DNA from: Vibrio cidicii
GTDB taxonomy: Bacteria; Pseudomonadota; Gammaproteobacteria; Enterobacterales; Vibrionaceae
DNA: 64,000 nt
Reading direction: 5' to 3'
Assembly: GCF_009763805.1 (NCBI RefSeq)
Contig: NZ_CP046804.1
Span: 2,108,001 to 2,172,000, forward strand
In this document: piece after piece, positions 24,566 to 62,884 of the stretch
Layout: each line of letters begins with the position of its first letter
Numbering within the stretch: position 1 is the first letter of the stretch
Notes under the pieces: model-generated
Databases searched by the model: none
What the model was told of the DNA's origin: nothing
What the model saw: only the letters and a program-made list of their open reading frames with translations
Translations under genes and position numbers: made by a program

Positions 24566-25418
24566 ATGACAAACAAAAAAACAACTCTCTTCGGAGAGTG
24601 CCTGGCCGAATTCATCGGTACAGGTCTACTAATCTTTTTCGGTGTTGGCTGCGTTGCCGCGCTGGTTCTTGCCGGTGCTCAATTTGGTCAATGGGAAATC
24701 AGCATTGTGTGGGGCTTTGGGGTCACCATCGCTATCTACTGCACCGCAGGGGTATCGGGTGCGCACATCAACCCTGCGGTGACCATCGCACTGGCTGCTT
24801 TCCACGGCTTCGACAAAGCGAAAGTCGTGCCTTACATCATCGCTCAACTGCTTGGCGCATTTTGCTCTGCGGCGCTGGTTTACAGCCTGTACAGCAACCT
24901 CTTCACTGACTACGAAACTGGCACACAACCTGATCCGTGGTAGCAAAGAAGGCTTGGCAACGGCTGGCATCTTCTCCACTTACCCACACGCTTCACTCTC
25001 TTTCCTTGGCGCTTTTGCGGTGGAATTTGTGATTACTGCGGTACTGATGTTTGCCATTTTGGCACTAGGCGATGAACACAACGGCGCTTCTCGCGGTGCG
25101 ATGAACCCACTATTGATCGGCATTTTGATTGCGGTCATCGGTGGCTCACTTGGCCCACTAACCGGTTTTGCCATGAACCCGGCTCGTGACTTCGGACCAA
25201 AACTGTTTGCTTACTTTGCAGGCTGGGATTATGCCCTCACTGGTGCGAAAGACATCCCTTACTTTATCGTGCCAATCCTTGCTCCGATTGCCGGTGCTTG
25301 CTTTGGTGGCTGGTTGTATCCAAAAGCAATTGCGGCTTACCTACCTAATGTTGGCCAAGGTTGCACCATCCCGAATCAATGCGATGCTGCTGAAGACGTT
25401 GAAGAAGCTCGCGCTTAA
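24566..25418 (+). pseudogene. glpF: Glycerol uptake facilitator GlpF, apparent one-base frameshift
   Basis: GlpF is the aquaglyceroporin that lets glycerol diffuse through the inner membrane. The first frame (125 codons) contains helices 1-3 with the first pore motif GAHINPAVT and ends DYETGTQPDPW. The second frame continues with AHNLIRGSKEGLATAGIFSTYP and the second pore motif GFAMNPARDFGP. The total span is 3n+1 bases. Deleting one A from GAAAC at 24914-24918 joins them as YELAHNLIRG and gives 283 residues, the usual length. Its Shine-Dalgarno context (AAAGGA..CTTACCATG) is the same as that of glpK, 43 bases downstream in the same operon. Everything else looks intact, so a sequence error is a likely explanation. 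Confidence 0.88.
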
Positions 25419-25461
25419 TAAATTGACTAAAATATAACTAACGAAACGAAAGGATCTTACC

Positions 25462-26979
25462 ATGACTGAGCAGAAGTACATTGTGGCGCTGGACCAAGGC
25501 ACAACCAGTTCCCGCGCGGTGGTTTTAGACCACGACGCGAATATTGTTTCCGTTTCCCAGCGCGAATTCACTCAGATCTACCCTCAAGCAGGATGGGTAG
25601 AGCACGATCCCATGGAAATTTACGCCACCCAGAGCTCAACCTTAGTGGAAGTTTTGGGTAAATCGGGCATTCGCAGCGACCAAGTAGCCGCCATCGGTAT
25701 CACCAACCAACGTGAAACCACCATTGTATGGAATAAAGAGACAGGCAAACCGGTGTATAACGCGATTGTGTGGCAATGTCGCCGCACCGCCGATATCTGT
25801 GAAGATCTGAAAGCACGCGGCTTGGAGAGCTACATCCGTGACAATACAGGCCTAGTGCTCGACCCTTACTTCTCGGGCACTAAGGTGAAGTGGATTCTCG
25901 ATAACGTGGAGGGCGCGCGCGAAGACGCCGAAGCTGGCAAACTGCTGTTTGGTACCGTCGATACTTGGCTCGTTTGGAAAATGACCCAAGGTCGTGTGCA
26001 CGTAACCGACTACACCAACGCCTCTCGTACTATGCTATTTAACATCAACGATTTGTGTTGGGATCAGAAGCTTCTAGACGAAATGGGTATTCCAGCCTCA
26101 ATGATGCCAGAAGTGAAACGCTCTTCTGAAGTCTACGGCCAAACCAACATTGGTGGTAAAGGTGGTACGCGTATTCCAATCGCTGGGATCGCAGGTGACC
26201 AACAAGCAGCACTGTACGGACAAATGTGTGTCGAAGCGGGGCAAGCGAAAAACACCTACGGTACTGGCTGCTTCTTGCTGATGAACACGGGCAAAGAGAA
26301 AGTGGCGTCGCAAAACGGCCTACTGACCACACTGGCTTGTGGCCCACAAGGCGAGCCCGCCTACGCACTGGAAGGCGCGGTATTTATGGGCGGCGCATCG
26401 ATTCAATGGCTACGCGATGAGCTTAAGCTGATTTCTGATGCGCACGACTCCGAATACTTTGCTACCAAAGTGGACACTTCAAACGGCGTGTATGTGGTGC
26501 CTGCCTTTACTGGCCTTGGCGCACCATACTGGGATGCCTATGCTCGCGGTACCATTGTCGGCCTGACTCGCGGCGTGAACGCCAATCACATCATCCGCGC
26601 GACACTGGAAGGCATCGCCTACCAAACTCGCGACGTGTTGGATGCGATGCAAGCCGACTCGGGCATCAAGCTCTCAGCGCTACGTGTCGATGGTGGTGCA
26701 GTGGCCAACAACTTCTTAATGCAGTTCCAATCGGATGTATTGGATACCGAAGTACACCGTCCGAAAGTGACCGAAGTAACCGCACTTGGCGCGGCATACC
26801 TTGCTGGACTTGCCGTGGGTTACTGGAACAGCATTGATGAGCTGAAGAACAAAGCAGAAATCGATCGCTCTTTCCTTCCTCATCACGACGAAGAGAAACG
26901 CAACCGCCGCTACAAAGGCTGGAAGCGTGCCGTTAAGTGTGCGCAAACTTGGTCTGAAATGCGCGATCTCGAAGATTAA
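25462..26979 (+). CDS. glpK: Glycerol kinase
   Basis: GlpK phosphorylates glycerol to glycerol-3-phosphate with ATP, trapping it in the cell. The 505-residue protein of the FGGY family has the ATP-site motif [13 protein letters not shown] near residue 9, the glycerol-binding segment [11 protein letters not shown], and the FGGY signatures [13 protein letters not shown] and [20 protein letters not shown]. It lies 43 bases behind glpF with an identical ribosome-binding context and before a strong terminator, so glpF-glpK form one transcript. In enteric relatives GlpK is inhibited by enzyme IIA-Glc and by fructose-1,6-bisphosphate; whether that holds here is not visible. Confidence 0.96.
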
Positions 26980-27000
26980 TTCTTACCTCCCCCTCTGTTT

Positions 27001-27025
27001 GGGCGCCTTCATGGCGCCCTTTTTT
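27001..27025 (+). terminator. Terminator after glpK
   Basis: GGGCGCC (27001-27007) pairs with GGCGCCC (27013-27019) over loop TTCAT, followed by a run of six Ts. Confidence 0.88.
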
Positions 27026-27164
27026 GTTGTTTCAGCCGATTTCTTGATGTTGGTTGCTTCTATGAATGCGTTATTTAGCGCACAATAGCCCGAGTGATTA
27101 TTTTCGAATGCCAGCATTTCTAACCCTTAAGGACTAAGCTGGTTAGAGGCATCAGGGAGACAAA

Positions 27165-27932
27165 GTGAAGCAGATACCAAGACATCAACAAATCATTGAA
27201 ATGGTGAAAAAGCAGGGATATGTCAGCACCGAGGAGCTGGTCGAGAAATTTAATGTTAGCCCGCAGACCATTCGCCGTGATCTGAACGAACTTGCCGACG
27301 AGAATAAAATCCGCCGCTACCATGGTGGTGCAACCATTCCGCTCAGCTCAGAAAACACCTCCTACTCGACCCGTAAAAAAGAGCACTTTACCGAGAAAGA
27401 TCTGATCGCCGAAGAGCTGGCCAAGCACATTCCCGATGGCGCGACGTTGTTTATTGACATCGGAACCACGCCTGAGGCGGTTGCCAAAGCGCTCAACAAA
27501 AATCACAAGCAATTGCGCGTCGTTACCAACAACATCAACGTCGCCAGTATTTTGCTCAGCAATCCAGAGATCAAAGTTATCCTCGCGGGCGGAGAAGTGC
27601 GTAACCGGGATGGCGGCATTGTCGGAGAAGCCACGCTGGATTTCATCAAACAGTTCCGCCTCGATTTCGGCATCTTAGGCATCAGTGGCATTGATTATGA
27701 TGGCTCTCTACTCGATTTCGACTATCACGAAGTGCGCGTTAAGCAAGCCATTATCGAAAACAGCCGCAGTGTGTACTTAGCGGTCGACCACAGCAAATTT
27801 GGCCGTAATGCAATGGTGAAACTGGGCAACATTTCGCAAATTAACTTACTGATCACCAATCAGCAGCCTCCCGAAGAGATCAGCGCCATCCTTAAAGAGC
27901 ATCAAATTCCGTTAGAAATCGCCAGCCACTAA
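27165..27932 (+). CDS. glpR: Glycerol-3-phosphate regulon repressor (DeoR family)
   Basis: GlpR represses glp genes and is released by glycerol-3-phosphate. The 255-residue protein has the N-terminal DeoR helix-turn-helix (residues 1-57, GYVSTEELVEKFNVSPQTIRRDLNEL) and a sugar-phosphate-binding C-terminal domain with DIGTTPEAVAKAL. The start is a GTG at 27165, with GGGAG seven bases upstream. Its own gene lies between glpK and glpD, with terminators on both sides, so it is probably transcribed alone, unlike E. coli, where glpR is in the glpEGR operon. Confidence 0.93.
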   Translation: MKQIPRHQQIIEMVKKQGYVSTEELVEKFNVSPQTIRRDLNELADENKIRRYHGGATIPLSSENTSYSTRKKEHFTEKDLIAEELAKHIPDGATLFIDIGTTPEAVAKALNKNHKQLRVVTNNINVASILLSNPEIKVILAGGEVRNRDGGIVGEATLDFIKQFRLDFGILGISGIDYDGSLLDFDYHEVRVKQAIIENSRSVYLAVDHSKFGRNAMVKLGNISQINLLITNQQPPEEISAILKEHQIPLEIASH

Positions 27933-27956
27933 TCTACTTTCCTCAAGTTCGCTTTG

Positions 27957-27985
27957 CGCCTCACCTCTTTGGTGGGGCGTTTCTG
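27957..27985 (+). terminator. Terminator after glpR
   Basis: CGCCTCACC (27957-27965) pairs with GGTGGGGCG (27971-27979), one G-T pair, loop TCTTT, followed by TTTCTGTTTT. Confidence 0.75.
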
Positions 27986-28059
27986 TTTTCGCCACCGTAA
28001 ACACCCAAACGCACGCCTTATCAGCTTCCCTTTCTTCGTTCTTATGCGCAAATCACACA

Positions 28060-28147
28060 AACGCTCAAAAACGAAAATAAAGGATGATCTCATTCGAAAA
28101 TTCAGTTAGGCTTCTTTTAGTTTCCAAAATGTTCGTTCGCTCAATAT
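28060..28147 (+). promoter_or_regulatory. Candidate GlpR operators upstream of glpD
   Basis: Two matches to the E. coli GlpR operator consensus stand before glpD. AACGCTCAAAAACGAAAATA at 28060-28079 matches 15 of 20 positions (right half nine of ten). AATGTTCGTTCGCTCAATAT at 28128-28147 matches 13 of 20 (left half complete). Two operators would allow cooperative repression or looping. The second repeats the CGCTCAAT seen before glpF. Confidence 0.5.
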
Positions 28148-28173
28148 AACAATACAAAAATAGGTCAGCTTCT

Positions 28174-29715
28174 ATGATGAACTCACAACCTCAACAATCT
28201 CCAATTCTTGATCTCATTGTCGTTGGCGGTGGGATCAATGGCGCAGGTATCGCCGCCGACGCAGCAGGCCGTGGGCTTAGCGTTGGTTTATACGAAATGA
28301 AAGACTTCGCTTCAGCTACCTCGTCAGCCAGTTCGAAACTGATCCACGGTGGTCTGCGCTACCTTGAACACTATGAGTTTCGTTTGGTCTCAGAAGCGCT
28401 TGCTGAACGTGAAGTGTTGCTGAAAAAAGCGCCGCACATCGCCTTTCCGATGCGCTTTCGTTTACCACATCGCTCCTATCTACGCCCAGCATGGATGATT
28501 CGCTGTGGGCTATTTTTGTATGACCACCTTGGCAAACGCACAACGTTACCAAGCAGTGAAAAGGTCAATCTGGCGCAGACAGGCCTTCTCAAAGAAGAGA
28601 TGAAAGTGGGCTTTGAGTACTCCGATTGCTGGGTGGATGATGCCAGACTCACACTCTTAAATGCTCTTTCCGCACAGCAAAATGGCGCGGAAGTGCGCAA
28701 CTATTGCAAAGTGGAAAAAGCCGAACGCACGGAAGGGATGTGGAAAGTCACGCTGCAAGATCAGCACACCGGCGAGCGTTTTGAGCGCATGGCGCGTGCG
28801 TTGATCAATGCGGCTGGCCCTTGGGTAAAAGCGTTTTACGATCAAAGCTTGGATACACCATCACCGCGCAATATTCGTTTGATCAAAGGCTCACACATCG
28901 TGGTACCGCGCGTGCATCCTGATCCTCAGGCGTATATTTTGCAAAACAACGATGGCCGGATCGTTTTTGTTATCCCTTACCTAGACAAGTTCTCAATTGT
29001 CGGCACCACCGATGTGGAATACAAAGGCGACCCGCGCGAAGTGGCCATCTCCGAACAAGAGATCGAATACTTGATTGATATCGTCAATCAGCACTTTATC
29101 CACCAGCTTGAGCGTAAAGACGTCGTGTGGACATACAGCGGCGTGCGCCCTTTGTGCGATGATGAGTCGGACTCACCGCAAGCCATTACCCGCGACTACA
29201 CTATCGAGCTTGAGCAAGAGTTAGACCAAGCGCCGCTGCTCTCCATCTTTGGGGGTAAACTGACCACGTACCGCAAACTGGCAGAATCGGCAATGCGCAA
29301 ATTAGCGCCCTACTTTAGCGAGATGGGTCAGGCATGGACCGCCAACCAAGCCCTGCCGGGCGGGCACTTCAGTTGTACACGTGAGCAACTCGCCACGTTA
29401 CTGACCCAGCAGCACGCATGGCTTACCCCTGCTTTGGCACAACGCTACGTAGCGCAATTTGGTAGCGATGCTCGAGCGCTGCTGCAAAATGTCACTCAAG
29501 AGAGTGACATGGGTACGCAGTTTGCCGAGGGTGTCTACCAAAAAGAGATCGATTATATGCTGAACCATGAGTTTGCCCGTTGCGCAGACGATGTACTGTG
29601 GCGACGTACTAAACTTGGCCTTTATCTTACCCCTGAGCAGGTCGATGAACTCACACGCTACATTAAGCAGCAAGTAGAAAGCACTCAGCCAGCACCACTT
29701 AAAGCGGTCTGTTAA
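28174..29715 (+). CDS. glpD: Aerobic glycerol-3-phosphate dehydrogenase
   Basis: GlpD is an FAD-dependent, membrane-associated enzyme that oxidises glycerol-3-phosphate to dihydroxyacetone phosphate and feeds electrons to quinone. The 513-residue protein begins with the FAD dinucleotide-binding motif LIVVGGGINGAGIAADAAGRG. It has the family segments SKLIHGGLRYLEHYEF and IVFVIPYLDKFSIVGTTDVEY, and the C-terminal FGGKLTTYRKLAE. Candidate GlpR operators precede it. A long inverted repeat follows the stop and reaches into the zntB ribosome-binding region. Confidence 0.96.
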   Translation: MMNSQPQQSPILDLIVVGGGINGAGIAADAAGRGLSVGLYEMKDFASATSSASSKLIHGGLRYLEHYEFRLVSEALAEREVLLKKAPHIAFPMRFRLPHRSYLRPAWMIRCGLFLYDHLGKRTTLPSSEKVNLAQTGLLKEEMKVGFEYSDCWVDDARLTLLNALSAQQNGAEVRNYCKVEKAERTEGMWKVTLQDQHTGERFERMARALINAAGPWVKAFYDQSLDTPSPRNIRLIKGSHIVVPRVHPDPQAYILQNNDGRIVFVIPYLDKFSIVGTTDVEYKGDPREVAISEQEIEYLIDIVNQHFIHQLERKDVVWTYSGVRPLCDDESDSPQAITRDYTIELEQELDQAPLLSIFGGKLTTYRKLAESAMRKLAPYFSEMGQAWTANQALPGGHFSCTREQLATLLTQQHAWLTPALAQRYVAQFGSDARALLQNVTQESDMGTQFAEGVYQKEIDYMLNHEFARCADDVLWRRTKLGLYLTPEQVDELTRYIKQQVESTQPAPLKAVC

Positions 29716-29721
29716 ACCTAA

Positions 29722-29807
29722 GCTCTCTGTTTCTTAGCAAACAACACTGGCGTCATGGCAGTAAGTCGCGTACTTTGAACACTGCCATTTTTTAGGAAAC
29801 AGAGAGC
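29722..29807 (+). promoter_or_regulatory. Nested inverted repeats in the glpD-zntB leader
   Basis: An outer perfect 12-bp pair, GCTCTCTGTTTC (29722-29733) with GAAACAGAGAGC (29796-29807), encloses an inner perfect 8-bp pair, ATGGCAGT (29755-29762) with ACTGCCAT (29781-29788). The right outer arm contains the only well-placed purine-rich ribosome site for zntB (GAGAG, seven bases before the ATG). Folding would hide it. The inner stem followed by TTTTTT could also act as the glpD terminator. This is read by eye only. Confidence 0.6.
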
Positions 29808-29813
29808 CTATCC

Positions 29814-30743: not shown

Positions 30744-30755
30744 CCATTGCCACTA

Positions 30756-31922: not shown

Positions 31923-33374
31923 ATGGCAAATCTTTTAATTGTGACTGACCAAACCAGTGATTGGCAGCAGTATTTTCCATCCGAACAAGTGGTCAATGTT
32001 GCCCAATATTTAGACAGTGAATGGCAACACAATCAGCGCAGTGTACAGGTGGTTAACCTGTGCCGAGATTACAGTTACATGAGCAGTGGCTACTACTGTT
32101 CACTGATGGCAGGCGCACGTGGACATCGCGTCATCCCGACCGTTACCGCCATCAACGACATTACCCAACCATTATTGATCTCCTCCGGTTTTCTTCGCCT
32201 TCATCGTCTACCGAAAGATCAAGATGAGATCGCGTGCAAGATCTACTTTGGCCGCACAGAGCAAAAGGGGCTAGAAAAGTTGGCCAGACGCCTGTTTGAA
32301 CAGTTTATGGTGCCGGTGATTGAGCTGAAAATGACCCGCAATCAGCACAACTGGCAAATCGACTCAGTGCAGCCTTTCCCATTCCAAGATCTTGAAGAAC
32401 AAGAGGAAAACTTCTTTATCGAGTCGCTAGAGATGTTCTCCAACAAAGTATGGCGCAAACCCAAGCAAGAGAAAAAATATCGCTACGATATCGCAATGCT
32501 GGTCGATGAAGAAGAGAAAATGCCCCCGTCAGACCCTTCCGCGCTCAAGCGCTTTAAGCGTGCCGCGGCACGTTTAGGGATGAATTTGGAAACCATTTCT
32601 CGTGATGAAATTTCGCGCCTTGGCGAGTTCGATGGCCTATTTATCCGCGCGACCACCAATATCAGCAACTATACCTACCGCTTTGCTAAAACGGCCGAGA
32701 AACTAGGACTGGTGGTGATGGACGACTCCGAGTCGATCATGAAGTGCACCAACAAGGTCTTTCTCACTGAGCTTCTGAAAAACAACAAAGTACCCGCGCC
32801 AGCCAGCGTGATTTTGAAAAACTTTGACCCGGAGTGGAAAAGCGATCTACTCAGCGAACTAACCTTTCCCATGGTACTGAAAATTCCAGATGGCGCATTT
32901 TCACGTGGTGTGGTGAAAGTGCGTAATGATGAAGAGCTGGAAAAAGAAGCGGCGGCGTTGTTTGAAAAGAGCGAGTTGATTTTGGCACAAGCCTTTATGC
33001 CAACCGACTTTGACTGGCGCGTTGGAATTTTGAACCGCCAAGCGATCTTTGGCTGTAAATACATGATGAGCCGTGGTCACTGGCAGATTTATCAGCATCA
33101 CAACAGTGGCCGCGTCTCTTCCGGTGGCTTTGAAACGCTGGATCTAAAACAAGTGCCGAAAAATGTGGTGGATGTGGCGCTCAAAGCGGCCAACTTGATC
33201 GGTAATGGCCTTTACGGCGTGGATCTCAAAGAGATTGATGGCCAAGTGTACGTGATTGAAGTCAATGACAACCCGAGCATCGATCATCATGTCGAAGACG
33301 CCTTCCTCGGTGATTTACTTTACGATCGCATCATGACCGAATTCTTGCGCCGTATTCAGATGCGCGGTTTCTAA
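31923..33374 (+). CDS. RimK-like ATP-grasp ligase with RLAN N-terminal domain
   Basis: A 483-residue protein with an N-terminal RLAN domain (about 1-190, recognised by MANLLIVTDQTSDW, CRDYSYMSSGYYCSLMAGARGH and FGRTEQKGLEKLARRLFE) and a C-terminal ATP-grasp domain (about 200-480). The ATP-grasp hallmarks are present: FPMVLKIPDGAFSRGVVKV (lysine and flexible loop) and YVIEVNDNPSIDHHVED (metal-binding E and N). RimK relatives add glutamate or other amino acids to a carboxyl group by ATP-driven amide formation. RLAN proteins have no established substrate. The gene is divergent from the GNAT/C39 peptidase gene, suggesting that the pair makes and trims a peptide bond on the same target. A strong bidirectional terminator follows. 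Confidence 0.85.
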   Translation: MANLLIVTDQTSDWQQYFPSEQVVNVAQYLDSEWQHNQRSVQVVNLCRDYSYMSSGYYCSLMAGARGHRVIPTVTAINDITQPLLISSGFLRLHRLPKDQDEIACKIYFGRTEQKGLEKLARRLFEQFMVPVIELKMTRNQHNWQIDSVQPFPFQDLEEQEENFFIESLEMFSNKVWRKPKQEKKYRYDIAMLVDEEEKMPPSDPSALKRFKRAAARLGMNLETISRDEISRLGEFDGLFIRATTNISNYTYRFAKTAEKLGLVVMDDSESIMKCTNKVFLTELLKNNKVPAPASVILKNFDPEWKSDLLSELTFPMVLKIPDGAFSRGVVKVRNDEELEKEAAALFEKSELILAQAFMPTDFDWRVGILNRQAIFGCKYMMSRGHWQIYQHHNSGRVSSGGFETLDLKQVPKNVVDVALKAANLIGNGLYGVDLKEIDGQVYVIEVNDNPSIDHHVEDAFLGDLLYDRIMTEFLRRIQMRGF

Positions 33375-35341: not shown

Positions 35342-35975
35342 TCAGAACTTGTAACGACCACCGATGTAAAGGGCTGTTAGGTCAACATTAGTGTCGTAGA
35401 AACTCTGTGCCAAGAGCGCGGTAACCGCCTTGGATCATCCAACCAGAGTCAAACTCGTAGCCAGCTTCAATACCGTAAGTGAAACCATTGCCACTTTCGC
35501 TCTCCAACTTGGCAGAGTTGTAGTTGCTTTTGGTCAGCTCTACTTCAAATTTAGTTGCTGAATAACCCAGTAGAGCCCCTAAATAAAACTTAGTATTAGA
35601 AAAATAGTACTTCGGGCGAATATTCAGACCATAGCCTGAAAATGATCCTTCAACATCCGCAGAAACAATCCCACCATTAGTGGTCGTTGCTAGTGCACTA
35701 CCCAAATTTTTAGAGCCGTAATTGACGTACTCAAACTCAATACCAGTCACGAAATTGTCAGTGATTTTTTTATCGAAACCAATAGAAAATGCAGCCCCGG
35801 CATCCAGATCATAAGACTTCGCATTTGCATCGTTGATGGAAACTTCTGTTTTTAGTCCTTCAAGCCCCACATACCAGCCCTGTTTTGGGCCAACGTGAGT
35901 TTGTTCGATCTCTTCCGCACCTGCTGTAAATGCAGCACCCATAGCCAATGCCAGAATCGGCAAAATTTTTTTCAT
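35342..35975 (-). CDS. OmpA/OmpW-like outer-membrane beta-barrel protein, apparent frameshift near C-terminus
   Basis: The protein has a signal peptide (MKKILPILALAMGAAFTAGA, cleavage near AGA-EE) and an eight-stranded-barrel pattern (GWYVGLEG, FVTGIEFEYVNYG, GLNIRPKYYF, FTYGIEAGYEF). The frame runs to GYRALGTEF and then hits a stop after FLRH. Deleting one base in GAAAC at 35399-35403 (plus strand) restores FYDTNVDLTALYIGGRYKF with the C-terminal aromatic residue that barrels need. The corrected length is 210 residues. The start is the ATG at 35975, with AAGGGAA upstream. I cannot say which ligand, if any, it binds. Confidence 0.75.
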
Positions 35976-36258: not shown

Positions 36259-37861
36259 TTAAATTTTAAAGCGCGTCATTTTTTCATCGAGCTGGCGAGA
36301 GAGATCCGCTAATGTTTCACTCTCTTCGGCCAAGAAATTGGCGGCTTGCGACATCTCCATCGCGGCGTCGTTAATCCCACTGACGTTACGATTCATCTCT
36401 TCCGCCACGGCACTCTGTTCTTCCGCTGCGGTCGCTATTTGCGTCGCTTTGTCACTCACATGACGAATATGGTCAACGATAAGCTGTAAATCTTCTCCAG
36501 CATGCTCTGCCTGTGCAACACTGCTGTCGGCCAAAGAGCGGCTTTTTTGCATCGCATCCACCGCAGCCACAGCAAGTTGCTGTAGAAGATTTATCGTGGT
36601 TTGAATTTCATCGGTCGAATGATGAGTACGCCCAGCGAGATTACGCACTTCGTCTGCGACCACGGCAAAGCCTCGTCCTTGTTCACCAGCGCGAGCGGCT
36701 TCAATTGCCGCATTAAGAGCCAGAAGGTTGGTTTGTTCAGAAATGCCGCTAATCACACTGGTCACTTCACTGATTTGCATCACGCCTTCTTTGAGTTTGT
36801 TGACCTGCTCATTAGCCACATTTAACTCAACAGAAAGTTGGCGAATACTATCGACACTAGAATGCACATCCTTATCACCGAGGTTGGCTTCTTTGGTTGC
36901 ATCGAGTGTATCGCGCGCCGTATCTTCAGCATGCCCGGCCACATCGGCCACCGTCGCACTCATCTCATTCATCGCAGTCGCCAATTGATTGAGTTGATCG
37001 CGCTGACTGACTACCGCTTGGCTGGTCTCTTCCGCTGAAGTAGCAATACGCACCGCGGCATCGGCCACTTCTGACGCTGACTGCACGGATTCATACAGAG
37101 CATCCCGAAACCGAGGCAATGCTTTGATTAATATCGTGCGCTAAGCGGCCGAACTCATCTCGACCTTCAACCTTCACGCGAGCGGTTAAATCGCCTTTCG
37201 CCACTTGCTTCATGCTTTCGCGAATCGCTTGCAATGGCTCAACCACTGCGCGGGTAATCACGATACCCAAGCCGCTCATCAGCAAGGTGACGATTAAAGT
37301 GGCTAGCCCCATTTTCATGATCTGCTGATTGACCGCCGATTCAATGTCATCTAGCAGCATACCCGAACCAATAATCCATCCCCATGGCGCAAAACCTTGT
37401 ACCACCGAGAGCTTTTCGGCTGGCTGGCCAGCATTATTCTGCCAAGGGTAGATCAATGATCCAGTTCGGCCACTACTGCCTTTTTCTACCATGGTGAACC
37501 AAAATTGCCCGTCGCTACCATTGCCCATCTGCTTTCCGACCAGATCATCACGAATGGGATGGACAACGGTGTAGCGGTTTTCATCTATCACAAACAGATA
37601 ATTTTCGCCGTCAAAGCGTGTATGTTTGATCAATGCTTGCGCTTGTTGCTGCGCTTCTTGTCTCGGTAACGTCTGATTAAGATAAGCTACTTGAGAAAAC
37701 ACACTGCGGATCACCGCATTTAAGCGAGCTTCTCTTTCAAAAATGAGATTTTGTTTGAGTGCATTGGCAGAAATAGCCAGAAGAGAGAGAAATCCCAGTA
37801 TTCCAACCGCAATAATAATAGTCAGCTTGTAGCTGACTTTGATGTTTCTTAGCTTCAACAT
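36259..37861 (-). pseudogene. Methyl-accepting chemotaxis protein, apparent one-base frameshift
   Basis: An inner-membrane chemoreceptor: TM1 (about 12-34), a periplasmic single-Cache domain (about 40-185, with FDGENYLFVIDENRYTVVHP and PWGWIIGSGMLLDD), TM2 (about 190-212), HAMP (VVEPLQAIRESMKQVAKGDL), then the cytoplasmic signalling domain with the hairpin motif [34 protein letters not shown]. The upstream frame ends in [10 protein letters not shown]. Deleting one base of GAAAC at 37107-37111 (plus strand) gives [14 protein letters not shown] and joins the two parts into 533 residues. The ligand is unknown; single-Cache receptors often sense small organic acids. It is transcribed alone. Confidence 0.85.
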
Positions 37862-40459: not shown

Positions 40460-42146
40460 ATGATTCAGCCTAACGAGTTAAGCAAACCCAACTGCGCTCT
40501 CCCACCGCCAAATGAAATGATCTTAAAATGGGCAGCGGAACGCCCGAATGAGGTCTATCTAAAACAAATCATTAACCGCCAGTTCGTCGAGTTCACCTAT
40601 GAGCAAGTCGCTGACCAAGCGCTGCGTTTAGTCACCGCTCTTCGCGAGCTCGGGGTACAACCGGGCGATCGTGTCGCACTGATTTCGAAAAACTGCGCCG
40701 AGTGGTTTATCTGCGATTTAGCGATGATGCTTGGTGATTACGTCAGTGTCCCGATCTTTCCAACTGCCAGCTCAGAAACGATTGAATACTGCTTGAGCCA
40801 CAGTGAAAGTAAAGTTTTGATCGCGGGTAAACTTGATAATCCGGAGACTACGCAAAAAGTTATCGACGAGATGACCGATATCAAGAGCATCGCGTTGCCG
40901 TATGATTCTGCGCCACAATGCCAGTATCAGTACAAAAACTTGATTGCCAAGGCCGAGCAGAGTCAAGAGCGCCCGCAGCACCACGATGATAAACTGATGT
41001 CTTTAGTTTACACCTCGGGCACCTCTGGTCTGCCGAAAGGCGCGATGCTCACTTATGGCGCATTTTGTTGGTCGGTGCATCAACTGATTAAACACATCGG
41101 AATTCAAGAAAACGACCGCCTGTTTCTCCTATTTACCTCTCGCGCACATCACTGAGCGCGTCTATATCTTTGGCTCCTCAGTAATCGGCGGTGTTCCGAC
41201 TGCCTTTCCGGAATCGCTAGATACTTTTATCGAAGATGTCAAAATGCAGCGCCCAACGCTGTTCATTTCAGTACCACGTTTATGGACACTGTTCCAGCAA
41301 CGCATCCAGGACAAATTGCCGCAAAAACGTCTTAATTTTTTGCTAAAGATTCCCTTGGTCAATTCCTTGATCAAAAAGAAGCTGGCCGATGGACTTGGTT
41401 TAGATCAAGCTCGCGTGCTGGGTTGTGGCTCCGCTCCAGTTTCTCCTGCACTGCTCCAGTGGTACCACAGTGTCGGGCTCAACATTACTGAAGCTTGGGG
41501 AATGACAGAGGCCTTTGCCTACACCACATTGAATTACCCATTTAGGGCCGACAAAATCGGCAGTGTTGGTAATGCAGGGCCGGGCATTGAACTTAAAATC
41601 GCTGAAGATAGCGAGATCATGGTTCGCAGCCAAGGGCTCTTTTCTGGCTACTATAAGAATGACATTGCCACCAAAGAGTCCTTTGATAAAGAAGGTTGGC
41701 TACATACTGGCGATATAGGCTCTATCGACAGCGAGGGCTATTTGACCATTCAAGGGCGTAAAAAAGACACCTTCAAAACCGCCAAAGGCAAGTTTGTCGC
41801 ACCTGTTCCTATCGAGAAAAAACTCTTTGAATACAGCCGTGTGGAGATGATGTGCCTCATTGGATCCGGGTTACCCGCACCAATATTACTGGTTGTGCCA
41901 CATAACTTCCCTCATTTTGACCGTGAGCGGTATGAACGAACCACGCAAAAAGTCATCAAACGCATGAATGACGAATTGGAATCTCATGAGCAGATCAAGG
42001 GAGTCCTTATGATTAAAGAGCCCTGGAGTATCGATAACGGCATTTTGACGCCAACATTGAAAATAAAGCGCCATGTGCTTGAGCAGAAGTATCACGAAGT
42101 TGGCCACAACTGGCCAAAAGACAAACTGGTGGTTTGGGAGCAATAA
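40460..42146 (+). pseudogene. Long-chain fatty-acid--CoA ligase-like AMP-binding protein, apparent one-base frameshift
   Basis: An adenylate-forming enzyme of the long-chain acyl-CoA synthetase (ACSL) type, which activates fatty acids to acyl-CoA by way of acyl-AMP. The first frame has the phosphate-binding motif LVYTSGTSGLPKGAML and ends abruptly in FTSRAHH. The second frame resumes in the family segment LPLAHITERVYIFGSSVIGGVP and has the adenylation motif EAWGMTEAFAY and YLTIQGRKKDTFKTAKGKFVAP. Deleting one T from GTTTC at 41122-41126 rejoins them as DRLFSYLPLAHITERV (561 residues). It lies close to fusA2, as in V. cholerae. Apart from the shift no other damage is seen. Confidence 0.85.
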
Positions 42147-43586: not shown

Positions 43587-45675
43587 TTACTTCTTAGCGT
43601 TACGCTCTTTAACTTCAGCAATTACTTGCTCTGCTACGTTGTTTGGACATGGTGCGTAGTGTGAGAATTCCATAGAGAAACTGACCACGACCAGAAGTCA
43701 TTGTACGTAGAGTACCGATGTAGCCGAACATTTCAGAAAGTGGTACGTCTGCTTTAACGCGAACGCCAGTTGCACCCATTTCTTGGTTCTTGATCATGCC
43801 ACGACGACGGTTCAAGTCACCGATTACGTCACCAACGTGATCTTCAGGAGTGAACACGTCAACTTTCATGATTGGCTCAAGAAGCTGAGGAGCCGCTTTA
43901 GGAATTGACTGACGGAATGCGCCTTTCGCTGCGATTTCAAATGCGATTGCAGATGAGTCAACTGCGTGGAAGCCACCGTCGAACAGTTCAACTTCAACGT
44001 CTAGTACAGGGAAACCAGCCAAAGTACCAGTCGCCATCATAGACTTGAAGCCTTTCTCAACTGCTGGCCAGAATTCCTTAGGAACGTTACCACCAACAAC
44101 AGTTGACTTGAAGGTGAAACCAGTGTTTTGCTCTCCTGGCTTGATACGGTAATCGATCTTACCGAACTGACCAGAACCACCAGACTGTTTCTTGTGCGTG
44201 TAGCTGTCTTCAACTGCTTTCGTGATAGTTTCACGGTAAGCTACCTGTGGAGCACCTACTTCTAGCTCAACGCCATAAGTACGCTTCAGGATGTCAACTT
44301 TGATGTCTAGGTGAAGTTCGCCCATACCTTTAAGGATGGTTTCGCCTGAATCTTCGTCAGTCTCAACTTGGAATGATGGATCTTCTGCAACCATTTTACC
44401 GATCGCGATACCCATTTTCTCAGAGCCGTTCTTATCTTTTGGCTTAACAGCGATAGAGATAACTGGATCTGGGAAGATCATTGGCTCAAGAGTACATTCG
44501 TGCTTAGGATCACATAGAGTGTGACCAGTTTGAACGTTCTTCATACCAACGATAGCGATAATGTCACCTGCTTGTGCAGATTCTAGCTCGTTACGGTCGT
44601 TTGCGTGCATTTCCACCATGCGGCCAACACGCTCAGTTTTACCTGTTGCGCTGTTAAGAATGGTATCACCCTTCTTGATTCGACCTGAGTAAACACGAAC
44701 GAAAGTCAGGGCACCAAAACGGTCATCCATGATCTTGAACGCAAGCGCTTTTAGAGGAGCATCAACAGATACTGTTGCAACTTCACCAGTTGGCTCACCC
44801 GTTTCTGGGTTAGTCAGAGGCTGAGGTTCAACTTCAGTTGGAGACGGTAGGTAATCAACAACTGCGTCTAGTACAAGTTGCATACCTTTGTTTTTGAATG
44901 CAGAACCACAGTATGTTGGGAAGAACGCTAGTTCACGAGTACCTTTACGGATACACGCTTTGATTTGCTCGATAGATGGCTCTTCGCCGTCCATGTAAGC
45001 CATCATTAGTTCGTCGTCTTGCTCAACAGCAGATTCGATCATCATCTCACGGTATTCTTCAACTTGATCTACCATGTCTGCTGGGATTTCTTTGATTTCG
45101 TAGTTTTCTGGAAGACCTGAGTCATCCCATACGAATGCTTGACGAGTTAATACGTCAACTACACCAACGAACTCGTCTTCACGGCCGATAGGTAGAGTCA
45201 TCACTAGAGGGTTAGCGCCTAGTACTTTCTTCACTTGCTCAACAACGCGGAAGAAGTCTGCACCCATACGGTCTAGTTTGTTTACGAAGATCAGACGAGA
45301 TACTTCTGATTCGTTTGCGTAACGCCAGTTTGTTTCTGACTGAGGTTCAACACCGCCAGAACCACAGAATACACCGATACCACCGTCAAGAACTTTCAGA
45401 GAACGGTAAACTTCAACAGTGAAGTCAACGTGTCCAGGGGTGTCGATTACGTTAAAACGGTGGTCTTTCCAGAAACAGGTAGTCGCAGCAGACTGGATAG
45501 TGATACCACGCTCAGCTTCCTGTTCCATGAAGTCCATCGTTGAAGCGCCGTCATGTACTTCACCCAGACGGTGGATTTTACCAGTAAGCTTCAAGATACG
45601 CTCAGTGGTAGTGGTTTTACCCGCGTCAACGTGCGCGAAAATACCAATGTTTCTGTATTTTGATAAATCTGCCAT
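43587..45675 (-). CDS. fusA2: Elongation factor G, second copy (EF-G2), apparent frameshift at the C-terminus
   Basis: A translational GTPase of the EF-G family. The G motifs are [27 protein letters not shown] and [10 protein letters not shown]; domains II-V follow. The open frame loses its normal end after GRGQF and reads a short wrong tail. Deleting one base of GAAAC at 43677-43681 (plus strand) restores [33 protein letters not shown] sequence and the stop at 43587, for 695 residues. It is not in a str operon with rpsL/rpsG/tufA but next to radA, where V. cholerae keeps its second EF-G gene. The true role of EF-G2 (translocation, recycling or stress translation) is not settled here. Confidence 0.88.
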
Positions 45676-55877: not shown

Positions 55878-56452
55878 TTCTATCTCCGATCAATATTCAA
55901 AAATTTTACTACTCAGCCCCTTTTCCCTGTTTCTGCTCACCTCAAAAGCAAACAGCAACTCAGTAAAAAGGTCTTTGCTAAACAGTCATTGATGAACGGA
56001 CTTGGTTCCCTGAAGACTCGGCAGTCATTACTTGCCAATTGCTATCCTTGTCACCGCACAGTACCAATTTGGCCTATGGCACAACAATCTATGATTGCGG
56101 TGTCTTTTTATCTGCACTTGGCGCCACCCACTCTATCAGCTTAGCTAACCAAGGCAGAGAGTATCGGGCAATTCATTTGCCCAAAACATATCTATTCAGA
56201 TGAGCGATGAAACGTCCTGCCTCGTCCCTCTTCTGTGATTACTACATTATAGATATTCATCGCAAAACTGTAGCACCAAATAGAGCGCAAACGGTTTGTA
56301 TCTCAAAAAAACTCAGCCTCGACGCCCATGACGATTCGCTCTCACAGAGCCCATTTCATTCACTGTGGCGCAAAAACTGAAAACGCCCCGCAGCAATCTC
56401 TTGCTACGGGGCGAAATTAAACGGCGTCTATAAATACTGTCTCTTAACTAAC
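55878..56452. other. nupC-deoC intergenic region (575 bp)
   Basis: The nupC terminator lies at the right end: CGCCCCG with CGGGGCG and inner AGCAA/TTGCT at 56384-56413, with T-rich sequence after it on the minus strand. The rest should contain the deo promoter and CytR/DeoR/CRP control sites, but only a minus-strand TATAAT (near 56240) and a poor CRP-like TGTGATTACTAC are visible. I find no gene or RNA in it. Confidence 0.6.
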
Positions 56453-57716
56453 TTAGAAAGACAGGAAGAAGCCAGCGATGGTCGCTGCCATCAGGTTAGA
56501 TAGCGTACCCGCTGCAACCGCTTTAACACCCATACGAGCGATGTCGTGACGACGGTTTGGCGCTAGGCCACCTAGACCACCCAGTAGAATTGCGATAGAA
56601 GAAAGGTTCGCAAAACCACACAGAGCGAAAGAGATGATTGCAGCAGTCTTAGTAGACATCACTGCACCCGTTGCCGCAACAACTTGTGCGTTTCTCACCA
56701 ACGTAAGGAACAAAGTTTAGGTACGCAACGAACTCGTTCACCACCAGTTTTTGACCGATGAAAGAACCCGCTAGTGTTGCTTCTTCCCATGGCACACCAA
56801 TTAGGAATGCAAGTGGAGAGAAGATGTAGCCTAGGATGATTTCTAGCGTCAGTTCAGGCATACCGAACCAACCACCAACACCACCAAGGATACCGTTGAT
56901 CAGAGCGATCAAACCGATGAATGCCAATAGCATTGCACCTACGTTCAGTGCAAGTTGCAAACCAACAGATGCGCCGCCAGCAGCTGCATCGATTACGTTT
57001 GCAGGCTTGTCGTCACCGCCGTCGATCTCAGCGCCAAGATCTTCTTTTGGCGTATCAACTTCAGGTTTGATGATTTTTGCGAACAGTAGACCACCCGGTG
57101 CCGCCATGAATGATGCCGCAACTAGGTACTCTAGAGGAACACCCATTGATGCGTAACCAGCCAGTACACCACCAGCAACAGAAGCAAGACCACCACACAT
57201 TACGGCAAACAGTTCAGATTGCGTCATGTGAGGAACAAACGGACGAACCACAAGTGGCGCTTCAGTTTGACCTACGAAAATGTTTGCAGCAGCAGACATT
57301 GACTCGGCGCGAGACGTGCCCAGTGCTTTCTGCAGGCCACCACCAAGGATCTTGATAACCCACTGCATCACACCAATGTAGTAAAGTACAGAGATAAGTG
57401 CTGAGAAGAAAATCAGTGTTGGTAGTACTTGGAAGGCAAAAATAAAGCCGATACCGTCAACTGAAAAGTTAACTAGGCTGCCGAACAAGAAACCAGTACC
57501 GTCTTTACCGAAGTCGATAACGCTTTGAACACCAGCAGAGAAACCTGCTAGTAGATCACGACCCCATGGTACGTAAAGAACGAAACCACCGATGATAAAT
57601 TGGATAGCAAAAGCGCCACCCACAGTTCTTAGATTGATAGCTTTGCGGTTGTCAGACAGTAAGAATGCAATTCCTAGCAATACTGCCATGCCGACTAGGC
57701 TCATAAACAGGCTCAT
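56453..57716 (-). pseudogene. nupC: NupC-family nucleoside:cation symporter, apparent one-base frameshift
   Basis: A concentrative nucleoside transporter (CNT/NupC family). The first frame (355 codons) carries helices 1-8 with [29 protein letters not shown] and [14 protein letters not shown], and ends wrongly after [11 protein letters not shown]. The second frame continues with [34 protein letters not shown], the conserved CNT C-terminal motif. Deleting one base from GTTTC at 56690-56694 (plus strand) joins them as [15 protein letters not shown] (420 residues). It lies upstream of the deo genes on the same strand, an apt partner for nucleoside breakdown. A perfect CRP site stands upstream. 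Confidence 0.88.
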
Positions 57717-57861
57717 AGTTTATGACTTCCTTATTAAGTTATTTATTGGCGTGTTACAAAATGGAGCTATAAAGCGGAGGCAATTATACTCACGCCTCAA
57801 CAATTAAAGTAATGCCACCTTCACACTTTCCCATCAGACTCGGTGCAAATTCACTTTTGTT

Positions 57862-57877
57862 TGTGAGTATCTTCACA
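57862..57877. promoter_or_regulatory. CRP site upstream of nupC
   Basis: TGTGAGTATCTTCACA is an exact match to TGTGA-N6-TCACA. A minus-strand TATAAT (plus ATTATA at 57783-57788) lies between it and the nupC start, so the site would sit about 90 bases upstream of that start point. nupC is cAMP-CRP controlled in E. coli. Confidence 0.6.
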
Positions 57878-57921
57878 ATAATATACAAAACATCATATTG
57901 TTTGAGTGGGAATGTTAGATT

Positions 57922-58701
57922 TCATTCACAGATAGAGAACAGCGAATTGCTATTTTTCCAAAGTTGCGAAGCAACCGTTTGCTTTGTCTGATTTCTCAAC
58001 TCACAGAGTATAGTCAAGATGTTAACTATTTGTGATGGCGTATTTACCACACCCTGATAACCACTCAGTGGCATATCTGGTGCGTCGGTTTCCAAAAGCA
58101 GATGTTCAAGCGGCAGTTTCGCCACCGCTTGGCGAGTTTTGTTGGCGCGCGGATAGGTGATTGTGCCGCCAATACCGAGCGAGAAGCCCAATCTCAGCCA
58201 CTCCATCCCTTGTTCATAACTGCCAGAGAATGCATGCAGTACGCCCCCTTTAGGCAAATTAGCGGCTTTGACCATCTGGATCAGGCGATTATGCGCCTTA
58301 CGGCCATGTAAAATAACCGGCAGACCATACTGCCTCGCTAACTCAAATTGCCACCGCAACGCTTCTTCTTGTAAGGCAGGGTTAACCTTAATGGCAAAAT
58401 CTAGCCCACATTCACCAATGGCGACACAGCGCGTCGGACGCGCATCCAATCGTGCCATCAGTTGTGTTTGGTAGAGCGTATAGTCAGCGTTTAAGAAATA
58501 AGGGTGCAGGCCGAGTGCGTAGTAAATCTCTGGATGTTGCGATGACAGCTCTGCGACTCGCGACCAATTTTCCGGACCAACGGAAGGAATAAGGAATCGC
58601 TTCACACCCACGCGCTGAGCAGATTGCAAGATATGCGAAAAGTCGGTCTCAAACACCGGAAAATCGAGGTGGCAGTGACTATCAAACAGCGTCATTGTCA
58701 T
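57922..58701 (-). CDS. yjjV: TatD-family metal-dependent hydrolase YjjV
   Basis: A TIM-barrel amidohydrolase of the TatD family, putative metal-dependent DNase. The 259-residue protein has the metal-binding FDSHCHLDFP at the N-terminus, ALGLHPYF, AIGECGLDFA, VILHGRKA and LLLETDAPDMPLSGYQG, all the family metal ligands. E. coli YjjV is the closest name; in vitro TatD proteins are nucleases, but the natural target is unclear. The ATG at 58701 overlaps the stop of the small DUF5363 gene (ATGA); a second ATG two codons on (58695) is an alternative. Confidence 0.85.
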   Translation of the reverse strand: MTMTLFDSHCHLDFPVFETDFSHILQSAQRVGVKRFLIPSVGPENWSRVAELSSQHPEIYYALGLHPYFLNADYTLYQTQLMARLDARPTRCVAIGECGLDFAIKVNPALQEEALRWQFELARQYGLPVILHGRKAHNRLIQMVKAANLPKGGVLHAFSGSYEQGMEWLRLGFSLGIGGTITYPRANKTRQAVAKLPLEHLLLETDAPDMPLSGYQGVVNTPSQIVNILTILCELRNQTKQTVASQLWKNSNSLFSICE

Positions 58702-58820
58702 AGCGTTTCTCGCGCAGGATCTTGCTTGTAGGGTACACAACTGCGCTTTTGCTCCGGCGTTAAACCAAGCTCTCGACACCAATCGTCATAGCGCTTTAAC
58801 CACTTTTTCAACCACTGCAT
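58698..58820 (-). CDS. DUF5363 family small protein (40 aa)
   Basis: A very short gene: the product begins MQWLKKWLKRYDDWCRELGL and goes on TPEQKRSCVPYKQDP to a stop that overlaps the yjjV ATG by four bases. I recognise the C-[RK]-E-L-G-L and R-S-C-V-P pattern as the DUF5363 family, of unknown function. GGAG stands nine bases before the ATG at 58820; in-frame ATGs at 58826 and 58829 are closer to it, so the start may be up to three codons earlier. The overlap predicts translational coupling with yjjV. Confidence 0.7.
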   Translation of the reverse strand: MQWLKKWLKRYDDWCRELGLTPEQKRSCVPYKQDPARETL

Positions 58821-58908
58821 ACTCATCATCTCCACACTGTTTTACGCACCATATAAAAAAGCGCCCCGGGCTGCAAACCCAGGGCGATGATTCTCAATCA
58901 CTCAGCGC

Positions 58909-60498
58909 TTAGTGCTCACGTGTGGCACGGAACTCTACCTCAGGGAAGCGTTCTTTGGCTAAGTTCAAGTTGACCATGGTTGGCGCGATGTAGGTAAGAT
59001 TGTCACCGCCATCCAGCGCTAGGTTAGCTTGGTTCTTACGTTGGAACTCATCGAGTTTCTTCGCATCCGCACATTCAACCCAACGAGCCGTAGCAACGTT
59101 TACCCCCTCGTAGATCGCCTCCACGTTGTATTCTGATTTCAAACGCGCCACCACCACGTCAAACTGCAGCACACCGACCGCGCCGACTATCAAATCGTTG
59201 TTTTGCAGCGGGCGGAATACCTGTACTGCACCTTCTTCAGACAGCTGAACCAGCCCTTTGAGCAGTTGTTTTTGCTTTAGAGGATCGCGTAGACGAATAC
59301 GACGGAACAGTTCTGGGGCAAAGTTGGGAATACCCGAGAACTTCAGTGTTTCACCTTGAGTAAAGGTGTCACCGATTTGAATTGTGCCGTGGTTGTGCAA
59401 ACCAATGATGTCACCGGCGTAGGCATCCTCAGCACGAGAACGGTCTCCCGCCATAAAGGTCACGGCATCCGAAATATTGATCTGTTTCCCAAGGCGAACA
59501 TGGTTCATTTTCATCCCTTGGTTGTAAGTACCAGATACAATGCGCATGAAAGCGATGCGGTCACGGTGTTTCGGATCCATATTCGCTTGGATCTTAAACA
59601 CGAACCCAGTAAATTTGTCTTCGGTTGCTTCCACCTGACGCTCATTGGCCATACGCGGCAGTGGCGCAGGCGCCCATTGAGTCAGGCCATCCAGCATGTG
59701 GTCAACACCAAAGTTACCTAAAGCGGTACCAAAGAAAACCGGCGTCAGTTCGCCTTTGAGGAACATCTCAAGATCAAATTCATGCGAAGCACCCAGCACC
59801 AATTCAAGCTCTTCACGCAGTTGCTCAGCCAGATCAGCACCAATTTCAGTATCCAGCTCTGGATTGTCTAATCCTTTGATAATGCGCTCTTCTTGGATCG
59901 TGTGGCCGTGACCAGTGGCGTACAAAATCGTTTCATCGCGGTGAATGTGATAGACACCTTTAAACTCTTTACCACAGCCGATTGGCCAAGAGACAGGCGC
60001 ACAAGCGATATTGAGTTCGCTTTCAACTTCGTCCAGCAGTTCCATCGGATCACGAATATCGCGGTCCAGTTTGTTCATGAAGGTGACGATCGGTGTATCA
60101 CGCAGGCGAGTAACTTCCATCAGCTTACGCGTTCGATCTTCAACACCTTTGGCGGCGTCGATCACCATCAAGCACGAGTCAACGGCAGTCAGCGTACGAT
60201 AGGTATCTTCCGAGAAGTCTTCGTGTCCCGGAGTATCAAGCAGGTTGACCAAGCAGTCATTGTAAGGAAACTGCATCACAGAAGTGGTCACCGAGATGCC
60301 ACGTTCTTTCTCCATTTCCATCCAGTCGGATTTGGCATGCTGGCTTGAGCCGCGGCCTTTCACGGTACCAGCAGTCTGAATAGCACGTCCGAATAACAGG
60401 ACTTTTTCTGTAATGGTGGTTTTACCCGCATCCGGGTGCGAGATAATAGCGAACGTTCTGCGCTTGGCAACTTCGCTCAAAAATGGAGCATTTGACAT
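58909..60498 (-). CDS. prfC: Peptide chain release factor 3
   Basis: RF3 is a GTPase that removes RF1/RF2 from the ribosome after peptide release. The 529-residue protein has G1 in [17 protein letters not shown]3 in [16 protein letters not shown] and G4 in [10 protein letters not shown]. It has the RF3 length and the C-terminal segment [17 protein letters not shown]. It lies upstream of the DUF5363/yjjV pair on the same strand with 88 bases between. Confidence 0.96.
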
Positions 60499-60834
60499 GA
60501 CACTGATCTTCTTGTGTGTTCTGGACGGGAAACGGGCGGCTATCGCTTTTGCTCAATAACCCTGCAGATTGCTATCTGCGGCGCCCCTTCCTGAGGTAGA
60601 TTCAATTTTGCGCGGTATTCTCGCTTATTATTCGCCAATCGGCAACTCTGGACAGCAAAGTGCCGTGCGTTCAAAAAGCACTCAACGCTCTGCCTGTGAG
60701 AAATTTCCATCATGACGACTCGATTTTTCAACATCTATGTGTAGCAACACAAACGATTTTATCTCGTTCAAGTATTTTGGGTTACTTGGCTATATGTTCT
60801 ATAACTATAGAAGTAAGAAGGATTGGTTGACGGT
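60499..60834. other. prfC-diguanylate cyclase/phosphodiesterase intergenic region (336 bp)
   Basis: Two divergent genes share this region. A perfect 6-bp hairpin GCAGAT/ATCTGC with loop TGCT stands at about 60573-60588 in the prfC leader. The right half is AT-rich; AAGTAAGAAGGA at 60811-60822 is the likely ribosome site of the GGDEF-EAL gene. A 64-codon minus-strand frame at 60540-60734 has no recognisable product. Confidence 0.55.
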
Positions 60835-62884
60835 ATGCTAAAAAATAAAAAAGTACATTCTTTAGCTTTTAAGCAGGCACGAACCGTGTTTCTGGTTTCG
60901 GTTGTTCTTGGCCTGTGTTTTAGCTTGTACCATATTCTGGTTGATCTCCATCAGGAGCAGCGGCGCATCGAAGAGCACTATCAGTTTAAGTTGATGCAAA
61001 ATTATTCCAACGCCAGCCAAGCCGCATATCACTTAAACCACCTGCTAGCGGAGCAAGTCGCCTCCAGTTTGATGATGGATAACGCCGTCTACAGTGTCGC
61101 GATTGTTGACGATTTCGGTGACGTTCTCACACAAAAAAATCGGCCGATTGAAGCTCAAGATATGATCACGCAACTGCTTTCCACTATCTTGACGCCCGCC
61201 TCACCGTTTTACAAAACCGAGCTCCACCAGCCAAACTCAAACGTGGTGGTTGGCACGCTCAGCTTTTCCGTCAATGGTTCCAGTATCGCCGAAGCGTTTA
61301 TCAGCAAATCGAGCCGAATTCTGTTATTTGATTTGTTTCGTAATATTTTATTGACCACCATTTTGCTGGCTTTCTTCTATGTGAAGCTATCGAAACCGAT
61401 CATCACGTTGAATAATTGGGTGAATTCGCTGCAAAACCGCAAAACGGCGATCGAGCTACCACCAAGAAACAGTAATGATGAGCTCGGTCGTTTGGCGCTC
61501 TCTTTTCACAATTTATGGCAAGCGCGCGCGGCGGCAGAAAGCCAGTTAAACCAACTAGCTTACTACGATACGCTGACTGGGCTTGCTAACCGCAGCCTGC
61601 TGCTGAAAACGCTCAATGATAGTTTGAATGAAGCACTACGTAATAACAGCAATGGCGTTTTGTTCTACATGGATTTGGATCGTTTCAAAACCATCAACGA
61701 TTCGCTCGGTCACACCATCGGCGACAATTTAATGCGAGCCATTGCCAAGCGTTTGGAGGGTTGGCTACACGATGGCGAAACGGCAGCTCGTATCGGTGGT
61801 GATGAGTTCGCCATTCTGATCCCTAACTTGTCGCTGGAGCATGCGGCAAATAAAGCTCAGCAGTTACTCGCGTTAATATCAAATCCCTATTCGATTGATG
61901 ATCACCAACTTTATTGCACAGTGAGTATTGGCATTTCCAAGTTCCCCAGTGAAGGAATTTCCAGCATTGATGTTTTGCGCCAAGCCGATACGGCGCTCTA
62001 TCGCGCTAAGGTCGCAGGACGCAATAAATACATGTTTTATGAGCCAGAAATGCACGCTCAAGTTGAGTCGTTTCTGGAAATCGAAAAAGGTCTGCATGAA
62101 GCACTGCATCAACAACAACTTGAACTCTATTACCAACCTCAAGTGAACGACAAGATGCAAATCATCGGCGTGGAAGCCTTAATTCGTTGGAATCACCCAG
62201 AAACGCGGATTGCTCCCCCCTGGTGTTTTCATGCCTATCGCAGAAGAAACCGGGCAAATTCTGCCAATCGGTGACTGGATAATCGAACAAGCTTGTTACC
62301 AGTACGCGCAGTGGAAAAAGTTGGGCGTTTTCCCGGACACCTTCCGTCGCTTAGCAATCAACATCAGCCCGCTGCAGTTTTCTCAGCAGTTTTTTGTCGA
62401 GCACATTACCCATGCCCTTACACAAGCGGGTATTTCCGGCGAGCATATCGAACTGGAAATTACGGAAAGTTTGCTGTTAGAGAACGTGGAAAGCGCAATG
62501 AACAAGATGGCACAACTCAAAGAGCTTGATCTGAAAATTTCTATCGACGATTTCGGTACGGGCTACTCATCCTTGCGCTACCTTAAACATTTGGCGGTGG
62601 ACGTACTGAAAATCGACCGCTCCTTTGTCACCCAATTGCATCTAGATCAAAGCGACCAAGCGATCGTCGACACCATTATCATGACCGCGGATCGCCTCAA
62701 CTTAGAAGTGATCGCCGAAGGGGTGGAAGAGCACGAAGAGATGGAAGCATTAATGAAGCTCGGTTGTGAGCAGTTTCAGGGCTATCTCTTTGATAAGCCG
62801 CAGCCGGTTGATGTCATCACGCAAAGATTAAAAGAGAACAGCTACGGCGAAACCCGAGCCGCCGCGATGCTCAAAAGCAGTTGA
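60835..62884 (+). pseudogene. GGDEF-EAL c-di-GMP phosphodiesterase/diguanylate cyclase, apparent one-base frameshift
   Basis: A membrane-anchored c-di-GMP enzyme. TM1 at about 14-36, a periplasmic sensor region to about 165, TM2 at about 166-186, HAMP (to about 240), GGDEF with RIGGDEFAILIPN (no RxxD I-site), and EAL. The EAL motifs are intact across the break: EALIRWNHP, LAINISPLQF, ELEITES, IDDFGTGYSSLRYL, LKIDRSF, EGVEE. The first frame stops soon after WNHPETRIAPPW. Deleting one A in GAAAC at 62200-62204 gives NHPERGLLPPGVFMPIAEETG, a near-consensus EAL stretch, and 682 residues in total. Its stop runs 14 bases past the rimI stop on the other strand (convergent overlap). Confidence 0.85.

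Follow-up and report, generated by a model that had tools for sequence, protein, structure and literature searches.

Single-base insertions at GAAC sites of a Vibrio cidicii genome are probably long-read miscalls at phosphorothioate-modified DNA

Dnd proteins place a phosphorothioate (PT) mark at GAAC/GTTC in both E. coli B7A and Salmonella Cerro 87, on 10-15% of these sites (PMC8053081). In Salmonella, 3,870 PT sites make up 12% of the 32,795 GAAC/GTTC; at the favoured sites the motif is preceded by A or C and followed by T or G, C is favoured at position -2, and the rule of site choice is called unknown in that study (PMC9521924). Native nanopore reads of Salmonella enterica Cerro 87 err at GAAC/GTTC in a dnd-dependent manner: deleting dndB raises the number of called PT sites 1.8-fold, and deleting dndC lowers it 25-fold (PMC9069010). 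More generally, two reports describe how unmodelled modifications leave motif-centred consensus errors in nanopore assemblies (PMC10687267, PMC11610573). Here we analyze a window of 64,000 nucleotides from Vibrio cidicii (NZ_CP046804.1, positions 2,108,001 to 2,172,000), in which seven genes have their frame broken by one extra base at GAAAC/GTTTC, together with the Dnd island of the same genome, which offers a probable explanation for these breaks.

We propose that the extra bases are in all likelihood systematic long-read miscalls at PT-modified GAAC in native DNA that were left in the assembly, and that the seven genes are very probably intact in the cell. The Dnd island would substitute sulfur for an oxygen of the DNA backbone at a minority of GAAC/GTTC sites. 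Native-DNA nanopore reads were probably the basis of the assembly, and the altered signal at some PT sites would make the base-caller or the consensus write one base too many, turning GAAC/GTTC into GAAAC/GTTTC and creating a +1 frameshift within genes. Three elements of this reading are inferred: the presence of PT at the sites, nanopore as the platform, and the origin of the extra base in the reads instead of the DNA. The original prediction, made from the letters of the window, had preferred a systematic base-calling error, perhaps at a modified base, as the cause, and this now finds support in the Dnd locus, the motif and the partial use of sites, with the last step presumed.

The genome of the window (G000; two contigs of 3.43 and 1.32 Mb) carries an island composed of an integrase piece, dptF, dptG, dptH, a PT-DNA restriction enzyme, a DGQHR protein, dndE, dndD, dndC and dndB. 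The genes dndB, dndC, dndD and dndE form one cluster (L004) and match TIGR03233, TIGR03183, TIGR03185 and TIGR03184 over cut-off, as dptF, dptG and dptH match TIGR03238, TIGR03236 and TIGR03237, with PADLOC calling DndF, DndG and DndH. With dndBCDE and dptFGH, this locus resembles its counterparts in E. coli B7A and Salmonella Cerro 87, as it would in a four-base motif, GAAC/GTTC, and in partial site use, but it differs from them in having no adjoining dndA; the Dnd proteins share 52-74% identity with their E. coli 55989 homologues. No dndA was seen beside the dnd cluster, and IscS-family genes lie elsewhere in the genome, where the cysteine desulfurase family TIGR03402 gives four matches, all under cut-off and none adjoining dnd. 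In the window, 2301-3515 encodes a second class V aminotransferase that is IscS/CsdA-like and might serve as an additional donor of sulfur. Two dnd genes are themselves split at the pentamer. The match of the G000 dndC to its intact homologue in a second dnd-positive Vibrio species (G010) shifts frame at L004:18167/18168, inside a GTTTC, and the dndD of G010 is split at GTTTC.

For the errors themselves, the nearest precedent is PT detection in Cerro 87, which likewise finds nanopore errors at GAAC/GTTC with a signal tied to dnd; there, an amplified control served as the reference for errors in the reads, whereas here the insertion is seemingly fixed in a finished consensus (PMC9069010). Modification-mediated errors in nanopore assemblies share with our case the centring of consensus errors on a motif, but they are reported to be of another kind, namely mismatches at GCAGC/GCTGG in Listeria, with indels not the cause, and A/G and C/T ambiguity in K. 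pneumoniae, in place of an insertion (PMC10687267, PMC11610573). The mark in V. cidicii also differs from theirs in sitting probably on the backbone. While the biology of PT is known, we found no report, among the open-licence papers listed, of PT causing insertions in a nanopore consensus or of such insertions pointing back to the modification.

Frame breaks in the window were located by comparing unedited gene pieces with the proteins of relatives, with domain families and with codon statistics. All seven predicted breaks were present as +1 shifts, each at one of the 156 GAAAC/GTTTC of the window, and homologues, domains or codon statistics backed the changes of frame. The pentamer lies within 25 bases of a random coding position at a frequency of 0.1164, and seven out of seven would be reached by chance with a probability of ~3e-7. 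GAAAC lies in the sense of the gene in three cases and antisense in the other four, as had been claimed. The first sense site is in glpF (24914..24918, motif and gene on the plus strand), where the MIP family extends over two frames, three relatives shift frame at 24915 and codon statistics support the break. In nupC (56690..56694; GTTTC on the plus strand, motif and gene on the minus strand), two relatives change frame at 56692, and Nucleos_tra2_C positions 1-146 and 148-213 lie in two frames as pieces that continue each other. In the GGDEF-EAL gene (62200..62204, motif and gene on the plus strand), two relatives change frame at 62207-62229, and EAL positions 4-58 and 41-236 continue the same Pfam family in two frames.

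Three of the antisense sites have GAAAC on the plus strand and the gene on the minus strand. In an outer-membrane barrel gene, close to its end (35399..35403), homologues match in two frames: five of seven match up to 35400 and then in the other frame from 35413, one more shows the change weakly (E 0.47) and one shows none. In a chemoreceptor (37107..37111), the Cache/HAMP and signalling domains differ in frame and codon statistics call a +1 break at a site that no relative's protein covered. The third lies near the end of fusA2 (43677..43681), where 12 relatives shift at 43678 and a site test, described below, agrees. The fourth is in an acyl-CoA ligase (41122..41126; GTTTC on the plus strand, gene on the plus strand, motif on the minus strand), with AMP-binding spread over two frames and six relatives shifting at 41124. 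Relatives' proteins covered 51,049 of the 64,000 bases, and the further breaks they indicated came from one relative each, except one at 24501-24554 (three relatives, shift 22), which lies upstream of the glpF start. An eighth candidate at 33367, raised by codon statistics, was dropped, its homologues being of equal length. The unaltered GAGAACG reported near 7555 was found there. The nearest named proteins are those of V. navarrensis, with the barrel at 95% over 95% and a RimK-like protein at 98%.

The DNA of relatives could be aligned at five of the seven sites, yielding 37 segments, of which 32 have four bases instead of five and 13 of those 32 read exactly GAAC/GTTC. The pentamer occurs in none of the 37; the remaining five hold another five-base form, four of them coming from the distant relatives of the GGDEF gene. 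These counts speak against programmed ribosomal frameshifting at GAAAC, an explanation that would suit the common motif of the breaks and the gene pieces continuing each other within a family. GAAAC is moreover in sense at three of the seven window sites and at 28 of 58 sampled sites (30 being antisense, with some neighbouring sites representing one break), and an rRNA copy is affected as well. Because both orientations occur and an rRNA copy is hit, we reject recoding, as the original prediction had done, and give it a negligible probability.

The same prediction had suggested listing one-base frameshifts genome-wide, which we did on a sample of 464 kb from G000, made up of the window and 20 stretches of 20 kb, on which a frameshift-aware gene model was trained, blind to the motif and using no homology to place breaks. 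The model called 61 insertion-type and 32 deletion-type events. Insertion-type breaks had a strong excess of the pentamer, with GAAAC/GTTTC within 25 bases of 39 out of 61 against 7.1 expected from the coding background (P ~6e-22), and a rerun with slightly different training placed 41 of 62 near it. GAAAC was the most enriched 5-mer (38 vs 5.7), AGAAAC and CGAAAC were the top 6-mers, and GAAC itself was in no excess. The site test was positive at 43 of 834 coding GAAAC, whereas the eight remaining xAAAy contexts gave 37 positives among 7,334 sites, 30 of them with a GAAAC within 60 bases. Events centred on one short motif were seen on both strands. We discarded a plain homopolymer error, since other AAA contexts lack a comparable insertion rate and deletion-type events show no GAAAC excess (3/32, with 3.7 expected). 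Of the window sites, the model recovers five and misses those in the barrel gene and fusA2, where the breaks are near gene ends; the site test recovers fusA2. Among the insertion events of G000, a gene-junction flag fell on 13 of the 19 that lack the pentamer in reach but also on 18 of the 43 that have it, and it was therefore not applied as a filter. Two of the sampled stretches stand apart: in L011 and L012 (G000:C2:1200001-1220000 and 1400001-1420000) typical coding sequence is scarce by the model (0.30 and 0.11), the two have an identical frame-shift site and may represent a repeated mobile element, and neither has an Rfam match.

We further investigated other Vibrio genomes. dndC exceeds its family cut-off in 29 of 227, the genome of the window included, and we sampled 16 of the 28 others along with eight genomes without dndC. 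The dnd-positive G010 has two contigs, a completeness of 95 and a contamination of 5, and in 100 kb of it the pentamer accounts for 23 of 32 insertion events. Its event rate is 0.24 per kb vs 0.09 per kb in G000, and this heavier load may explain the completeness of 95. Scaled from 24 sites in 100 kb for G010 and 43 in 464 kb for G000, there would be roughly 1,200 and 440 breaks per genome, respectively. The other 23 genomes together gave 5 of 63 events at the pentamer in 1,092 kb, with 7.3 expected if the G000 background holds for them. A class-wide search for dptH returned one of 369 genomes, the V. cidicii genome itself, and so gained no further species. In E. coli, dndC-like DNA occurs in 204 of 5,426 complete RefSeq genomes, chromosomes only. 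Among the 60 of 218 E. coli records listed for dptFGH, no span was longer than the query except one holding a transposase; RefSeq drops frameshift-rich assemblies, and this result therefore says little.

A test free of any gene model came from comparing 23S rRNA copies within each genome. In G000, one of 11 copies reads GAGAAAC where the other ten have GAAC, and three other indel columns comprise one variant common to three copies and two single-copy indels, of which one adjoins a C run and the other falls within a G run. G010 has a single indel column among 2,891, with GAGAAAC in one copy and GAGAAC in ten. The six copies of G075 show no indel column, and the many indels of G007 nearly all stem from two divergent copies. 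These two (L168, L170) out of 11 are clearly divergent from the other nine.

The rRNA copies bear on an ordinary sequence-context error of the caller or polisher at GAAC, involving no modification. Context errors are common in long reads, and such an error is conceivable. Against it, most GAAC in the same genome are unaffected, including those in the ten 23S copies that share the local sequence; the 23 other Vibrio genomes, whose platforms may differ, show no excess; and both affected genomes are dnd-positive, compared with 29 of 227 in Vibrio. We therefore regard a context error as improbable.

The rRNA copies also weigh on real insertions by a site-specific mutator, perhaps through nicking or repair at PT sites, which the original prediction had listed as a possible cause. 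Both affected genomes do hold PT modification and PT restriction genes. Real insertions would nevertheless imply the hundreds of breaks per genome estimated above (roughly 440 and 1,200), would have changed one of 11 rRNA copies at a conserved place and would have split an essential gene. In seven of the eight genes whose second half was scanned (glyQ, guaA, acnB, a SecD homologue, PBP1b, fabV and nagA), the gene is split into halves that fall in one family, the second taking up where the first leaves off; fliF is not counted as split, since its second half had no family match. The product of glyQ is essential. dndC in G000 and dndD in G010 are themselves split, and a cell without dndC would presumably be unable to make the mark. 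The split glyQ, the split dnd genes and the rRNA copy make a mutator very improbable.

A different modification at GAAC is the most probable of the rivals, although we consider it unlikely. The mark could be methylation, perhaps by the TIGR04096 protein, or a mixture of PT and methyl groups. A PT-associated putative methyltransferase of family TIGR04096 adjoins the dnd cluster in G000 (L005:350-1930, that is G000:C2:670350-671930) and in G010, and GAAC substrates common to both modifications are named as a limitation of the Cerro 87 nanopore study (PMC9069010). The G000 gene lies in two frames with a GAAAC nearby, and the TIGR04096 gene of G206, another dnd-positive genome that otherwise has few such events, shifts frame close to both a GAAAC and a C run (L171, near 10017). 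The original prediction had advised looking for a methyltransferase with GAAC in its motif; PF01555, a strong PF02384 and TIGR04096 were indeed found in G000, but the likely mark is the Dnd phosphorothioate and not methylation. In a search covering these three families, PF01555 has no match in G010 and PF02384 is weak there, its strong form being found only in G000. TIGR04096 occurs in seven of eight Vibrio genomes searched, all dnd-positive, and in five of six clean dnd-positive ones, which makes it no better a predictor than dnd. Coding GAAC is miscalled at a frequency of 0.018 in G000 and 0.041 in G010, a share of miscalls and not of PT, and these ~2% and 4% fit partial PT better than near-complete methylation. 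Around the G000 sites, no strong base preference was seen beyond -2 and +3 within 12 bases on either side; with no distant partner base in that range, a bipartite type I target is disfavoured. We prefer PT over methylation because a Dnd locus is present and because the motif and its apparent partial use match published Dnd systems.

Flanking bases give a mixed picture of the PT reading. In G000, A or C precedes the motif at 38 of 43 assigned sites (background 1,073/2,315; P 2e-8), as at all seven window sites, and G or T follows it at 29 of 43 (background 1,104/2,315; P 0.013), in partial likeness to Salmonella Cerro 87. Several observations weigh against miscalls at PT sites as the explanation. 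The flank evidence is mixed because G010 shows neither preference (12/24 before, 14/24 after), and at -2 G000 favours G where Salmonella favours C (PMC9521924). Among the 43 counted sites, some are false, such as L004:6643, which is the dptG/dptH junction. Fifteen of the 16 other sampled dnd-positive Vibrio genomes are clean, and dnd alone is therefore not enough; the clean ones were presumably made or polished with other reads. When four clean genomes were sampled further, 7 of 31 events lay near GAAAC against 3.6 expected (4/15 in 200 kb of G206; 1/5, 1/7 and 1/4 in G161, G092 and G230, at 120 kb each with the earlier 40 kb included), a value somewhat above expectation; these four are not counted as affected, although G206 may be a borderline case. 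Finally, the affected genomes number only two and are perhaps from one laboratory.

If miscalls at PT-modified GAAC are nonetheless the cause, it is likely that nanopore-only genomes of Dnd bacteria assembled from native reads keep a readable print of PT in the form of single-base insertions at GAAC. An assembled sequence alone, with no reads, would then suffice to mine PT status, its motif and its favoured sites. Many of the pseudogenes apparent in genomes of this kind would be false, Dnd genes included. Where hundreds of genes carry false frameshifts, counts of pseudogenes, typing and scores of completeness would all be distorted. At the same time, the false letters may mark where the backbone modification sits, which would make possible a cheap comparison of site choice between species.

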